DNA of 64,000 bases, from contig NZ_CP023344.1 of the NCBI RefSeq assembly GCF_002310495.1, positions 3,613,501 through 3,677,500 of the forward strand, in the 5' to 3' direction. The translations under genes and the position numbers were made by a program. The notes beneath the pieces were generated by a model. It searched no databases. It saw only the letters and a program-made list of their open reading frames with translations, and was not told the origin of the DNA. The DNA comes from Nibricoccus aquaticus (GTDB taxonomy: Bacteria > Verrucomicrobiota > Verrucomicrobiia > Opitutales > Opitutaceae). Shown here piece by piece: positions 7,864 to 58,300 of this stretch; positions within the stretch are counted from its first letter, which is position 1; each line of letters opens with the position of its first letter.

Positions 7864-9630
<1,767 letters not shown>

Positions 9631-47541: not shown

Positions 47542-47741
47542 GGTGCTGGTGATGCGGGGAAAAAGCGGCGGTTCCGCCGACGGGAGACAATGAGTGCGTT
47601 TCTGCTCTGTCAAAGGGGAAAGCGGGCATTTCTCCTCTGAAAACGTGCGCGGAGCGCGGGGCGAGCAGGCGGCCTGCCGTGAGGAGATGTGACGCACGGC
47701 TTGACGGATACGCTTGCGGGGCGTGCTGTCTGGAAACGTTC

Positions 47742-50030
47742 ATGGAGCACGGCATCAACTTTATCCAGGACTTCGCGGTGGTGCTGCTGGTGGCAGGCGC
47801 GGTGGGGTGGTTTTGTCAGCGGGTGGGGCTTTCGGTGGTGGTGGGTTATCTGGTCGCCGGGGTGTTGGTGGGGCCATTCACGCCACCGTTCTCGCTGGTG
47901 AAGGAAGGGGGGAGCATCGAGACGCTGGCGCAGGTGGGGCTGGTTTTTTTGATGTTTTCCATCGGGTTGAAGTTGAGTGTGAGGAGGCTGAGGCGGTTGG
48001 GGTTTTTGCTGCTGGCGGGGGTGTTCGCGAGTGCGGCGGTGGTGTACTGCCTGACGCGCGCGGGCGGGCTGATGCTGGGGTGGAGCGGGACGGAGAGTTT
48101 GTTTTTGGCGGCGATGCTCATGGTGTCGTCGTCGTCGATCATCGGGAAAATTTTGCACGACACGGGTTGCACGCATGAGAAGGCGGGGCAGCTGGCGATG
48201 GGGGTGTCGGTGCTGGAGGACGTGGTGGCGGTGGTGATGCTGACGTTGCTGAATTCGCTGGTGCAGTTTGGCGGGGTGGGGCAGGGCGTGGATCTGGGGC
48301 AGACGCTCGGGATGTTCGGGGCGTTTGTGGTACTGGCGGGTATCGGCGGGTTGCTGATCGTGCCGTGGCTGCTGAAGAAGCTGAGCATCTCGGCGGGGGA
48401 GGAGTTGCAGACGGTGACGCTTGCGGGGCTGTTGTTCGGGCTGGCGTTGATCGCGCAGAAGGCGGGTTACTCGCTGGCGCTCGGGGCATTTTTGCTGGGG
48501 ACGATCGTGGCGGAGACGCCGCACCGGACGCAGGTGGAGCGGACGTTTGAGGGGATGCGCGAGGTGTTCACGGCGGTGTTTTTCGTGGCGATCGGGATGC
48601 AGATCGATGTGCGACTGGTGGGTGAGTGGTGGTGGTTGATCGTGGGCGTGGCGGCGTTCACGGTGGTGGTGCGGGCGCTGGCGACGACCATCGGGCTGTC
48701 GCTGATCGGGACTTCGGTGAAGGACTCGATGCAGGTAGGGTTGATGGCTACGCCGATCGGGGAGTTTTCGTTCATCATTGCGCAGCTGGGCGTGGCGGCG
48801 AAGGTGGTGCCGGAGCGGTTTTATCCGATGGCGGTCGGGGTGTCGCTGCTGACGACGCTGGGCGCGCCGTCACTGACGAAACATTCGGAGAAGATCAGTG
48901 TATGGGCTTTGTCGCGACGGCCGGGGTGGTTGCGGGCGTGGCATGGTTATTACTACACATGGATCGAGCGGCTGCGGGCGCGGCAGAAGCGAAATATGCT
49001 CTGGCAGCTGAGCAAGAAGCGGTTGATCCAGATAAGCGTGGAGGTGTTGCTGGTGACTGGGCTGCTGGTGTTTTCGGAGCCGCTGTTTGCGATGGTTGAG
49101 AGTTGGCTGGGGCATAACTGGCTGTTTCCGCATGGGCCGACGGTGCTGTTTGTCGCGGGCATGACGCTGGTCGTGCTGGCGCCGCTGGTGGCGATCTGGA
49201 GGAATATTTCGGCTCTGTGCCTGCTTTACGCGCAGGTGTCGGTGTCGGGGCATCCACAGGCGCGAAAGATGGCACCTGTTGTGGAGTGGGCGTTCCGGGC
49301 GGTGGCGGGAGCGGCGCTGGCGTTGTGGATTTTTTCGCTGTTGCCGGCGGGTGTGGGGATGAAGTGGCTGTTGCTGGCGAGTGTGTTGCTGGCGGGCGTG
49401 GGCATCCTGATTTTGCGGCGGAGGCTGGTTTACTGGCACAGCGAGCTGGAGGTGGAGCTCCAGGGGGCGCTCGCGGGGGCGGGGAGCGCGGCGATGGAGA
49501 CGAATGCGCCGTGGCTGAATCCGCATCGCGAGTGGAAGCTGAGTGTGAGCGATTGTGTGCTGCCGGATCTGGCGGATTGCACGGGGAAGAGGATCTCGGA
49601 GCTGGCGCTGAGGCCGCAGTTTGGAGCGACGATTGTGGGCATTGACCGGCAGGGCTGCCTGATCCCGCTGCCGGGACCGGAGACGGTGCTTTATCCGCGG
49701 GACAAGGTTTTGTTGATCGGCACGGCGGAGCAGATGGCGGCTGGCAAGGCATTCCTGCAAAGAGTGACGGGCAATCCGTCGGGATCGGAGTTCGAGGATG
49801 TGCGCATGGAAACCATCCTGGTTCCGACGGGCAGTCCGGGGGCGGGGAAGGATTTGAGGACGTTGATCCCGTCGCAGGGAAACCATGTGCAGATCGCGGG
49901 TATCCGGCGCGGGGAGACGCGGGTGCTCAATCCGGCGGGCGATGAAGTGGTGGGGGCGGGTGACGAGCTGCTGGTGCTCGGAACGCCGGACCAGATCCAC
50001 GGGTTTCGCGAGTGGCTGGAGGCGGTCTGA
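47742..50030 (+). CDS. Kef-type monovalent cation/proton antiporter with two RCK_C (TrkA-C) domains
   Basis: 762 aa. About 12 membrane segments of the CPA2 family (residues 1-~390), including MVSSSSIIGKILHDTG and MGVSVLEDVVAVVMLTLL (ion-site Asp). A second block of three to four hydrophobic segments (about 440-580) is an unusual addition. The C-terminus has two TrkA-C domains: about 600-680 (ISELALRPQFGATIVGIDRQ...VLYPRDKVLLIG) and 690-760 (DLRTLIPSQGNHVQIAGIRRGE...VVGAGDELLVLG). No TrkA-N (NAD-binding) domain. RCK_C domains of other bacterial K+ transporters bind c-di-AMP; a diadenylate cyclase gene lies 6 kb downstream. Start ATG 47742; divergent from mreB. Confidence 0.9.
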   Translation: MEHGINFIQDFAVVLLVAGAVGWFCQRVGLSVVVGYLVAGVLVGPFTPPFSLVKEGGSIETLAQVGLVFLMFSIGLKLSVRRLRRLGFLLLAGVFASAAVVYCLTRAGGLMLGWSGTESLFLAAMLMVSSSSIIGKILHDTGCTHEKAGQLAMGVSVLEDVVAVVMLTLLNSLVQFGGVGQGVDLGQTLGMFGAFVVLAGIGGLLIVPWLLKKLSISAGEELQTVTLAGLLFGLALIAQKAGYSLALGAFLLGTIVAETPHRTQVERTFEGMREVFTAVFFVAIGMQIDVRLVGEWWWLIVGVAAFTVVVRALATTIGLSLIGTSVKDSMQVGLMATPIGEFSFIIAQLGVAAKVVPERFYPMAVGVSLLTTLGAPSLTKHSEKISVWALSRRPGWLRAWHGYYYTWIERLRARQKRNMLWQLSKKRLIQISVEVLLVTGLLVFSEPLFAMVESWLGHNWLFPHGPTVLFVAGMTLVVLAPLVAIWRNISALCLLYAQVSVSGHPQARKMAPVVEWAFRAVAGAALALWIFSLLPAGVGMKWLLLASVLLAGVGILILRRRLVYWHSELEVELQGALAGAGSAAMETNAPWLNPHREWKLSVSDCVLPDLADCTGKRISELALRPQFGATIVGIDRQGCLIPLPGPETVLYPRDKVLLIGTAEQMAAGKAFLQRVTGNPSGSEFEDVRMETILVPTGSPGAGKDLRTLIPSQGNHVQIAGIRRGETRVLNPAGDEVVGAGDELLVLGTPDQIHGFREWLEAV

Positions 50031-55832: not shown

Positions 55833-57188
55833 ATGCGGCTGGAGAAAATCATCGCGCGCAGCCGCATCATCGATCTGCGCAGTACGGATCTTAAAGGCGC
55901 GCTGGAGGAGTTGCTGGATGTTTCGATCACGCGTTCGCCGGAGTTAAAGCGCGATGTGCTGCTCCGCGGTTTGCTGCAACGTGAGAGCACGATGACGACT
56001 TACCTCGGTGCGGGCGTGGCATTGCCGCACGTTCGCGTGAAAATGAAGCGCCGTTACATCCTCGCGATCGGGCGCAGCCGGGGTGGTGTCCGCCACGAGC
56101 GAACGAAGACGGATGAGCCGGTGAAGTTGATTTTGATGCTGCTCGCCGATGAAAAGGCGCGCGATTACCTGCAGGTACTGGCCTCGATCGCGCGGCTGGT
56201 GCAGGATCAAGAGACGGTTAAAAGCCTCATGGAGGCGCCATCGCTTGATGATCTGGATGAGCGGCTCACAGCGGCGTTGAGCGGCATCACGGCACGACCG
56301 GTGCAGGCGCAGCAAAGCCGTATCAATCGCATGATGATCCGGCAGGCCGACAACGTAGCGAAGGGTACGGACTGCTCGGCGATCATGGTTTTCGGCGACA
56401 CGTTCACGGGCGGGATCGAGCCGGGGAGCTGGCGTTCGGTGGCGAAGGCATTGCTGGTCACACGCAATCTAGTGGATGGCGACAATGAGGGCAGTGGATT
56501 TGCCGAGACGATCCAGGTGAGATCTTTTTCAACGCAGCGGCTGGCGCAGCTGCGCAGTGCTATGCTGGTGGCGCTGACGCGCGGAGTGATTTCGTTCAAC
56601 GACCGCATTTGCTGCATCGGGGGAATCGCGGGGAGTAATCAGTTCGACACGATGGTGGTGGTTGATGTGGAGCGGGAGTTCCAGACGCTGCTCACCGGGC
56701 ACACCGATCTGTTGCCCGAGGATGTGAAGCCCGAGGTGCTGGAGCGCGTGATCGCGGTGGCGACTGAGCTGGCGGTCGAAGGCCGCGAGGGCCGGCCGGT
56801 GGGGTGTCTTTTCGTGATCGGCGACACAGGCAAGGTGGAGAAGCTGACCAAGCCGCTCGTGCTGAATCCGTTTTATGGTTACAAGGAGGAGGATCGCAAT
56901 ATCCTCAATCCGTTCATGGACGAGACGGTGAAGGAGTTTTCCTCCATCGACGGAGCGTTCGTGATTCGCGGCGATGGCGTGGTGGTTTCCGCGGGCAGCC
57001 TGATCCAGGCTACGGATAACGATCACGCGCTGCCGAGCGGGCTGGGCAGCCGCCATGCGGCGGGCGCGGCGGTGTCGGTGGCGACGCAGGCGATCGCGAT
57101 CGTGGTTTCTTCGAGCACGGGGCAGGTGACGCTGTTTCGTCGGGGCGTGATGCTGCCGCTTATGGAAAAAGGCATGGGGCTCAAGTGA
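55833..57188 (+). CDS. PTS EIIA-like domain fused to a diadenylate cyclase (c-di-AMP synthase)
   Basis: 451 aa. Residues 1-150 are an EIIA-Ntr/fructose-type PTS domain; GVALPHVRVK keeps the phosphorylatable His (H66). Residues 160-330 resemble the N-terminal part of archaeal DacZ-type cyclases. The DAC domain follows (345-440): NPFYGYKEEDRNILNP, the catalytic DGA (373-375, SIDGAFVIRGDGVV), and the RH motif (R407-H408, GLGSRHAAGAAVSVATQAIAIVVSSSTGQVTLFRRG). It should make c-di-AMP from two ATP, perhaps gated by PTS phosphorylation. It has no TM helix (unlike CdaA) and no helix-hairpin-helix (unlike DisA). Starts 22 bp after nuoA and overlaps the acyltransferase gene by 4 bp, indicating one transcript. 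Confidence 0.88.
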   Translation: MRLEKIIARSRIIDLRSTDLKGALEELLDVSITRSPELKRDVLLRGLLQRESTMTTYLGAGVALPHVRVKMKRRYILAIGRSRGGVRHERTKTDEPVKLILMLLADEKARDYLQVLASIARLVQDQETVKSLMEAPSLDDLDERLTAALSGITARPVQAQQSRINRMMIRQADNVAKGTDCSAIMVFGDTFTGGIEPGSWRSVAKALLVTRNLVDGDNEGSGFAETIQVRSFSTQRLAQLRSAMLVALTRGVISFNDRICCIGGIAGSNQFDTMVVVDVEREFQTLLTGHTDLLPEDVKPEVLERVIAVATELAVEGREGRPVGCLFVIGDTGKVEKLTKPLVLNPFYGYKEEDRNILNPFMDETVKEFSSIDGAFVIRGDGVVVSAGSLIQATDNDHALPSGLGSRHAAGAAVSVATQAIAIVVSSSTGQVTLFRRGVMLPLMEKGMGLK

Positions 57189-58300
57189 GCGGCTCCAGCA
57201 AGCCGAGCATGACACGCGCGACTTCGCTCTTTCTGGATGTGCTGAGGTTGGCGGCGGCGCTGGTGGTTTTTTTCGCGCACACGACGAACTATTGGAATCC
57301 CGCGATGATGGGGCCGATGCAGGTGTGGGCGCATGATGCGGTGATCGTTTTTTTTGTGCTGTCGGGGTATGTGATCGCGCACACGACGCGCGATGGGGCA
57401 AGGGACGCGCGGCAGTACACGGTGGCTCGGTTGTCTAGGCTCTACTCGGTGGTGGCTCCGGCGTTGGTGCTGACTTGTTTCCTTTGGCTCGCGGGGCGCG
57501 GGTTGGAAGCGGAGTTTTATGCGGGTTACGAGCGGGCTTATCCTTGGGTGCGATTCGCCGCCTCGTCGGTGTTTTTGAATGAAGTCTGGATGCTGGAGCT
57601 TTCGCCGCCGACGAACACGCCGTTTTGGTCGCTCGGTTACGAGGCGTGGTACTACTTGTTTTTCGGGGTGGCGCTGTACGTGAAATCGAAGCGGGCGAGG
57701 TGGGGATGGCTGATTGTCGGCGCGTTGCTAGCTGGGCCCAATGTGTTGATGTTGCTGCCGGTGTGGCTGGTGGGAGTTGCGGCTTACAACTGGAGGGATC
57801 GAGGATCACTTTTGCGCGGTTGGGCGATGTCGGGCCTAGTCGGGGCGGTGGCTGCGACGTGGGCGGTGCTGCGGTATTTGCCGGACTGGCCGGGGACGGC
57901 CGGTGAGCATCCGTGGTATTTCGCGGGTGCGGCGGTGAGCGATTTGATCGGCGGATTGGGATGGGCTGCGATCATTTGGTTTTTCAACCGGGCTTTCGTG
58001 GGAGTGAATGTGATAACGGTGGTTTACCGCCCGGTGCGCTGGCTGGCGGGGCACACATTCTCACTATACCTGTATCATGCGCCGCTGGTGATTTTGGCGT
58101 CGGCAATGTTTCCTCCTTTCACCGTGAAGGGAGCTGAGTGGGTACCGATCATGGTGATCTTGATCGTGGTGTATATTATGGGTGCGGTGACTGAGTCGCA
58201 GCGTCATCGCTGGGAGGCGTTGTTTGGGTGGATTTGGGATCGGTTGATTAAGCGGGGCTCGAGTATTTCGCAGCCTGTCGATCAACCGCTGACTGGCTGA
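57185..58300 (+). CDS. Acyltransferase-3 family membrane protein
   Basis: 371 aa with about ten TM helices. N-terminus SLFLDVLRLAAALVVFFAHT carries the family Arg and His (RLAAALVVFFAH), and FFVLSGYVIAHTTRD is the second conserved motif. Members O-acetylate exported glycans. GTG 57185 overlaps the cyclase stop (GTGA); ATG 57209 is an alternative start. Translationally coupled to the c-di-AMP cyclase gene. Confidence 0.9.
   Translation: MSGSSKPSMTRATSLFLDVLRLAAALVVFFAHTTNYWNPAMMGPMQVWAHDAVIVFFVLSGYVIAHTTRDGARDARQYTVARLSRLYSVVAPALVLTCFLWLAGRGLEAEFYAGYERAYPWVRFAASSVFLNEVWMLELSPPTNTPFWSLGYEAWYYLFFGVALYVKSKRARWGWLIVGALLAGPNVLMLLPVWLVGVAAYNWRDRGSLLRGWAMSGLVGAVAATWAVLRYLPDWPGTAGEHPWYFAGAAVSDLIGGLGWAAIIWFFNRAFVGVNVITVVYRPVRWLAGHTFSLYLYHAPLVILASAMFPPFTVKGAEWVPIMVILIVVYIMGAVTESQRHRWEALFGWIWDRLIKRGSSISQPVDQPLTG

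Follow-up and report, generated by a model that had tools for sequence, protein, structure and literature searches.

A probable diadenylate cyclase with a phosphotransferase EIIA domain, encoded beside nuoA, in Nibricoccus aquaticus and its order

The window analysed here, a stretch of 64,000 nucleotides of the Nibricoccus aquaticus genome, contains an open reading frame, dacD, that starts with ATG and brings together, in one frame of 451 codons, three curated Pfam domains, each of them above its cut-off (Table 1): a phosphotransferase system (PTS) EIIA domain (PTS_EIIA_2, residues 14-145, E 6.4e-20, 72 bits against a cut-off of 27), a DacZ_P domain (E 1.3e-23, 83.5 bits against 27.4) and a diadenylate cyclase (DAC) domain (PF02457, E 4.8e-21, 75 bits against 27). 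An earlier note, made from the letters of the DNA, had proposed this frame with exactly these coordinates, as well as the fusion of an EIIA domain to a DAC domain, and both proposals agree with the Pfam profiles, the predicted fold and the conservation among relatives, the catalytic and phospho-acceptor residues being kept where the two profiles match. The same note had named an N-terminus without an EIIA profile match as a result that would speak against it, which is not what was found. The NCBIfam models agree in kind, all of them below their cut-offs: the best is DacZ (E 3.3e-37, 128.3 bits against 430 for the equivalog), followed by fructose EIIA and PtsN (46 bits for the PtsN equivalog, under its cut-off of 138.7). 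Among solved sequences, the N-terminus is nearest to IIA-Ntr proteins and the C-terminus to diadenylate cyclases of the CdaA type.

An AlphaFold2 model of DacD, for which the window protein and 80 relatives were the input, reached a mean pLDDT of 81 and a pTM of 0.57, so that each domain is modelled more reliably than the way the three are arranged relative to one another. In this model the N-terminal part matches IIA-Ntr from E. coli (1a6j, Z 21.5, 147 residues, rmsd 1.8), the middle part (model residues 160-283) matches residues 346-471, in the C-terminal domain, of the M. tuberculosis pyruvate kinase (5ws9, Z 14.2, 120 residues, rmsd 2.8; the search took this domain within the whole model, and other folds are possible), and the C-terminal part matches both CdaA with AMP (8c4n, Z 15.7) and DisA (9y4s, Z 15.5), in line with the domains that had been proposed from the letters. 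A chance or antisense reading frame is excluded by the three curated profiles in a single frame together with the confidence of this model, and a fusion of two genes during assembly is excluded by BLAST matches that run full length from residue 1 in all 59 loci of the order and also in other phyla. The start codon is consistent with those relatives whose open reading frames align from residue 1.

Table 1. Features of the dacD locus and of a candidate target gene in the window (window positions)
Feature	Position	Strand	Basis
nuoA, NADH dehydrogenase chain 3, 124 aa	55436..55810	+	Pfam Oxidored_q4, E 2.2e-30
dacD, EIIA - DacZ_P - DAC fusion, probable diadenylate cyclase	55833..57188	+	ORF and Pfam
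PTS_EIIA_2 / IIA-Ntr-like phospho-acceptor domain, residues 1-150	55833..56282	+	Pfam, fold
Arg50, aligned with IIA-Mtl Arg49 (1a3a)	55980..55982	+	Alignment; invariant in 81 rows
His66, predicted phospho-acceptor, aligned with IIA-Mtl His65 (1a3a)	56028..56030	+	Alignment, conservation
Tyr112, at the site of the second active-site His of IIA-Mtl (His111)	56166..56168	+	Alignment with 1a3a
DacZ_P probable sensor domain, pyruvate-kinase C-terminal fold, residues 165-285	56325..56687	+	Pfam, fold
DAC diadenylate cyclase domain, residues 314-439	56772..57149	+	Pfam, fold
DGA motif, residues 373-375	56949..56957	+	D373 and G374 in 68/68, A375 in 62/68
RH of the RHx motif, residues 407-408	57051..57056	+	68/68
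Cation/proton antiporter with two TrkA_C (RCK_C) stretches, candidate c-di-AMP target	47679..50030	+	Pfam Na_H_Exchanger and TrkA_C

The EIIA domain extends to about residue 150, where its end had been placed before, and the motif GVALPHVRVK does retain the phospho-histidine that had been read in it, namely His66. The IIA-Mtl residues to which Arg50, His66 and Tyr112 align are presumably all active-site residues there. The domain thus resembles IIA-Ntr (PtsN) and IIA-Mtl/Fru in its fold and in having the phospho-His with its neighbouring Arg, and differs from them in being fused to a cyclase and in carrying Tyr112 instead of the second active-site His. With the rows grouped by record label, His occupies position 112 in 31 of the 39 rows from outside Verrucomicrobiota sensu stricto; of the 42 other rows, 41 have Tyr or Phe there.

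Two sets of relatives describe the conservation of the phospho-site. The phylum-sample alignment holds 68 ORFs, and His66 is present in 60 of its 64 EIIA-bearing relatives (a count that omits L043 and L070, which have no EIIA domain, L072, which is cut by the start of its contig, and L058). In the second set, of 81 rows, it is present in 79 of the 80 collection loci (80 of 81 rows with the window included), these being the best 80 of 518 loci for the full-length query, a choice that favours EIIA-bearing proteins. The two sets share some contigs (L075 and L060, for example, are 100% identical), so that the counts taken from them are not independent. When the 150 EIIA columns are ranked by conservation in the 81 rows, Arg50, Pro65 and His66 fall within the top six, as is expected if the phospho-site of the domain is in use. 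In the family, His66 occurs in 36 of 36 genomes, and the mean pairwise identity is lower in the EIIA domain (0.65) than in the DAC domain (0.82).

The four exceptions of the order have Tyr (L067), Ser (L068 and L071) or Cys (L073) in place of His66, and all of them retain the DAC motifs, which indicates that the DAC domain can be kept without the phospho-site. Three of them (L068, L071 and L073) belong to a single genus, their genomes (G146, G172 and G301) measuring 1.6-2.1 Mb, and L067 comes from another genome (G363); in a Pfam scan of L068 and L073, the EIIA score of the former was below the cut-off and the latter had no EIIA match. The four genomes still encode HPr and EI, and among them the loss of His66 is therefore not associated with the loss of either. 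As a side observation, three sampled genomes of the same family (G099, G295 and G381) are without any DAC match, which makes a natural loss series.

The segment that follows the EIIA domain had been described as a DacZ-like linker, of which the likeness to DacZ holds and the linker does not, the segment being a folded domain, DacZ_P, with the fold of the pyruvate-kinase C-terminal domain. The DAC domain does lie at the C-terminus, although it begins at about residues 300-314 and not at residue 345 as formerly supposed, and the DGA and RH motifs attributed to it are in place. Asn345, Pro346 and Gly349 are found in 68 of the 68 relatives, as are Asp373, Gly374, Arg407 and His408; in the 81-row set the invariance of the DAC domain is in part the result of selection, since the patterns used to scan the collection lie within that domain. 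The third position of the RHx motif is Ala, not Arg, in DacD and in 59 of the 68 aligned rows. This was considered as a cause of inactivity and rejected, because an archaeal DacZ (L167) reads RHH at the same motif. With a DAC domain that has both its DGA and RH motifs, DacD probably makes c-di-AMP from two ATP.

The architectures of DAC proteins are reportedly catalogued by Galperin 2023 (All DACs in a row) and by Corrigan and Gruendling 2013, and we take the definition of the DacD class to include an EIIA domain. The earlier note was right in setting the protein apart from DisA, CdaA, CdaS and CdaM, though the class is not new: it has already been named DacD in Braun 2019 (PMC6741144), where the DAC classes come from Commichau 2018 and from Corrigan and Gruendling 2013, and where five DacD representatives are listed (Lacunisphaera limnophila, Puniceicoccaceae, Coraliomargarita, a Verrucomicrobia and an Opitutae bacterium). 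Compared by the names of these representatives, their lineage is that of the window protein and no difference was found, and a Lacunisphaera sp. locus (L142) has the same fusion at full length. Since nearly all the DACs sampled in the order are of the fused type (in 59 of its 63 genomes, the other four having no DAC match), the window protein most likely belongs to the DacD class. A limited literature search found no functional study of DacD or of an EIIA-fused cyclase, and c-di-AMP is absent from the main text of a 2026 review of the nitrogen PTS (PMC13104625).

A close layout is that of the archaeal DacZ and CdaZ (DacY), in which an N-terminal pyruvate-kinase-like domain precedes the DAC domain and both of which are active (PMC6741144). 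This is the order of the last two domains of DacD, and the invariant DAC residues are common to DacD and archaeal DacZ. Nevertheless, the archaeal protein compared (268 aa, DACZ_N and DAC) has no EIIA domain, DacD stays below the DacZ equivalog cut-off, and the DacZ/CdaZ branch is called distinct from the other bacterial classes compared in Braun 2019 (PMC6741144), DacD included, so that "DacZ-like" refers here to the layout and the best profile and not to membership. CdaA (DacA) shares the DAC fold (8c4n) and differs in its N-terminal membrane domain, in whose place residues 1-150 of DacD form the EIIA domain; the Pfam family of that CdaA N-terminus gave no match in DacD at E up to 10, which places DacD outside CdaA. 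DisA has its DAC domain at the N-terminus, followed by a linker and a DNA-binding domain, unlike DacD, whose DAC domain is C-terminal and ends at residue 439 of 451, and DacD is not a DisA either.

How widespread is this type of cyclase? In the phylum sample of 387 genomes (Kiritimatiellota being counted within the phylum of the window), DAC was found in 371 and DacZ_P in 67, of which 65 are above the family cut-off. In the order, 59 of the 63 sampled genomes have a DacZ_P-type DAC, full length by BLAST, and the other four are without any DAC match. A single DAC match was found in 56 of these 59, with a second DAC in G169, G220 and G307, and the genome of N. aquaticus itself yielded no DAC other than DacD. 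Outside the order, most of the DAC matches listed sit in frames some 270-350 aa long and score much higher against DAC, which is expected of CdaA, and the eight genomes there that bear DacZ_P have two DAC matches each. This pattern of presence and absence suggests that DacD has replaced CdaA across the order.

Full-length relatives, among the best 80 of the 518 loci, occur in Spirochaetota, Planctomycetota, Fibrobacterota, Kiritimatiellota and other Verrucomicrobiota, and one protein of each group (L077, L080, L116, L075 and L111, the last labelled Methylacidiphilum) was found by Pfam to have all three domains. A tree of 92 rows, made by a quick method, rooted at the midpoint and with long branches meeting, places the EIIA-bearing rows of the order in one group of 43 rows with a support of 100; the rows from Kiritimatiellota, Planctomycetota, Spirochaetota and Fibrobacterota fall elsewhere in the tree and are interleaved, and the named rows nearest to DacD are Opitutaceae. 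The phylum also contains DacZ_P-DAC proteins of about 300-320 aa that lack the EIIA domain (L070 in G169 and L043 in G347), G169 holding a full DacD as well.

The gene that precedes dacD is nuoA, whose end lies 22 bp upstream. By tblastn, nuoA is directly upstream of dacD in 54 of the 59 genomes of the order, with no match at the order loci L045, L047, L049, L050 and L067. Wherever it was found, it is on the same strand and directly upstream (90 of 90 loci, among which the place of the window counts three times and some other contigs count twice), with a gap of 9-522 bp and a median of 53.5 bp. The spacing makes co-transcription of nuoA and dacD likely, and their pairing is apparently new. The wider block is partly syntenic, with a DUF362-like gene upstream matched in 58 loci and an ApbC/Mrp gene downstream, on the opposite strand, in 40 loci, and therefore part of the pairing may be due to shared ancestry; it persists, at the same time, in families whose DacD is only about 37-55% identical to that of the window. 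None of the 40 largest neighbour clusters listed has one fixed place beside dacD across more than one phylum, and in two small clusters of mixed phyla (5 and 4 loci) the position is not constant. The acyltransferase gene at 57185-58300, which overlaps the dacD stop codon, had no tblastn match among the loci searched apart from the three that represent the window itself (L001, L019 and L034), and many of the loci searched extend only about 1 kb downstream. No sigma-70-like promoter was found between 55200 and 57400, where terminator-like matches are at chance level, and Rfam lists no c-di-AMP riboswitch within the 64-kb window.

The genome has one HPr, with the sequences GIHARPA and NGKSIMG, which we take to be the usual sites of phosphorylation by the PTS and by HPr kinase, as well as one HPr kinase and one EI of 594 aa, whose Pfam matches are the three EI domains. 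These genes do not establish a specifically nitrogen-type PTS; Pfam, at E up to 1e-5, lists no GAF domain in this EI. A second PEP-utilising enzyme lies in a frame of 975 aa, a size by which it is identified as pyruvate phosphate dikinase, and the EIIA_2 domains of the genome are two, that of DacD and a stand-alone EIIA with a PH motif. Of the order genomes that bear DacZ_P, 26 were also present in the HPr and EI samples, and HPr and EI were found in 26 of 26 (the four without His66 included), compared with 73 of 87 for HPr and 69 of 87 for EI in the whole samples; both proteins are common in the order anyway, so this co-occurrence is weak evidence. Besides separate HPr and EI, eight genomes (G010, G045, G039, G048, G128, G333, G422 and G433) encode fused PTS proteins of 825-1004 aa with HPr and EI N-terminal profiles.

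On the side of the messenger, a single 7TMR-HDED/7TM/HD protein (PgpH-like) and one DHH-DHHA1 protein, closest to NrnA and below the NrnA cut-off, are the candidates for c-di-AMP removal. TrkA_C (RCK_C) gives seven matches in four frames of the genome, which include the antiporter at 47679-50030 of the window, a K+/H+ antiporter above an NCBIfam cut-off and a CitMHS-type transporter. Another DHHA1 match (L165, G000:C1:356908-357171) falls in an open frame of 1039 aa with one internal TGA, perhaps, as a guess, an alanyl-tRNA synthetase-like gene that carries a frame error.

What, then, could an EIIA domain do in a cyclase? We think it rather probable that DacD is the diadenylate cyclase of the cell and is controlled by a regulatory phosphotransferase relay. 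With PEP as the source of phosphate, EI and then HPr would pass it on to His66 in the EIIA domain of DacD itself; the phospho-state, probably together with a small metabolite at the pyruvate-kinase-like domain, would alter the pairing of the DAC domains and hence the amount of c-di-AMP made from ATP; c-di-AMP would in turn have as its targets the cation/proton antiporters that bear RCK_C (TrkA_C) domains, and the PgpH-like HD hydrolase would remove it. That PTS phosphorylation sets c-di-AMP synthesis is plausible, and the complete route, from PEP through EI, HPr and DacD to c-di-AMP and potassium, is possible on paper. The domains, with their key residues and conservation, and the partner genes are observed; the steps that connect them are inferred, namely that His66 is phosphorylated, that this affects DAC activity, and with what sign, that the middle domain binds a ligand and that potassium is the target. 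The potassium end rests on two precedents: in E. coli, the K+/H+ antiporter YcgO is bound and inhibited by unphosphorylated PtsN (PMC11808508), and among the listed c-di-AMP receptors is the TrkA_C domain of KtrA (PMC7288161).

The decay of the EIIA domain beside intact DAC motifs, seen in three genomes of one genus and in one other, and the DacZ_P-DAC proteins of the phylum that do without it (L043 and L070) would also suit an active cyclase in which the EIIA domain serves for docking or oligomerisation, and in which either phosphorylation of that domain leaves the activity unchanged or the domain only binds HPr or another partner. This is rather unlikely, however, because docking alone would not need Arg50, Pro65 and His66 to rank among the most conserved EIIA columns, and because the family has kept the histidine throughout. 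It is also conceivable that DacD is mainly an EIIA protein that passes or stores phosphate for some other regulation, with the DAC side controlling the EIIA domain and c-di-AMP synthesis fed back on the relay, given that the stand-alone EIIA leaves the relay with at least two possible acceptors and that the direction of a signal between fused domains is unreadable from sequence. We regard this as improbable, since in fused signalling enzymes it is the receiver domain that usually controls the output enzyme, and since the c-di-AMP supply would depend on DacD, no other DAC having been found in this genome. Very improbable is, lastly, a sensor of c-di-AMP or ATP with an inactive DAC domain, which the altered RHR motif, with its widespread Ala, might suggest, but the residues kept in 68 of 68 relatives, the lack of the same Arg in archaeal DacZ, the DacZ of H. 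volcanii being active (PMC6741144), and a genome that would have a PgpH-like hydrolase and no cyclase found all speak against it.

A broader and quite tentative idea would make of DacD a gauge of energy with two inputs, the EIIA domain reading the PEP/pyruvate ratio through EI and HPr and the pyruvate-kinase-like domain reading a metabolite. In such a design c-di-AMP would set the potassium and proton flux, co-expression with nuoA would match the machinery of the proton-motive force to potassium control, and the link from PTS to potassium, which in E. coli consists of PtsN touching an antiporter, would be recast as a diffusible messenger, with DacD in the place of CdaA.

For most cyclases, the inputs that set c-di-AMP synthesis are poorly known. 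DacD offers a candidate input that is built into the cyclase itself, and three purified proteins and PEP suffice to test it. Its interest lies in this direct link from the PTS to c-di-AMP, in its being the usual sole cyclase found in an order of Verrucomicrobiota, with related fusions in Spirochaetota, Planctomycetota, Fibrobacterota and Kiritimatiellota, and in its pairing with nuoA. Were the link true, the energy and carbon state of the cell would be tied directly to a signal that controls potassium elsewhere, and two regulators tied to potassium, the PTS (as PtsN on YcgO, PMC11808508) and c-di-AMP, would be joined.

Elsewhere in the window, Rfam matches 5_ureB_sRNA at 8028-8359 on the reverse strand (81.1 bits against a gathering threshold of 40), which is perhaps, at a guess, the antisense of a urease gene.
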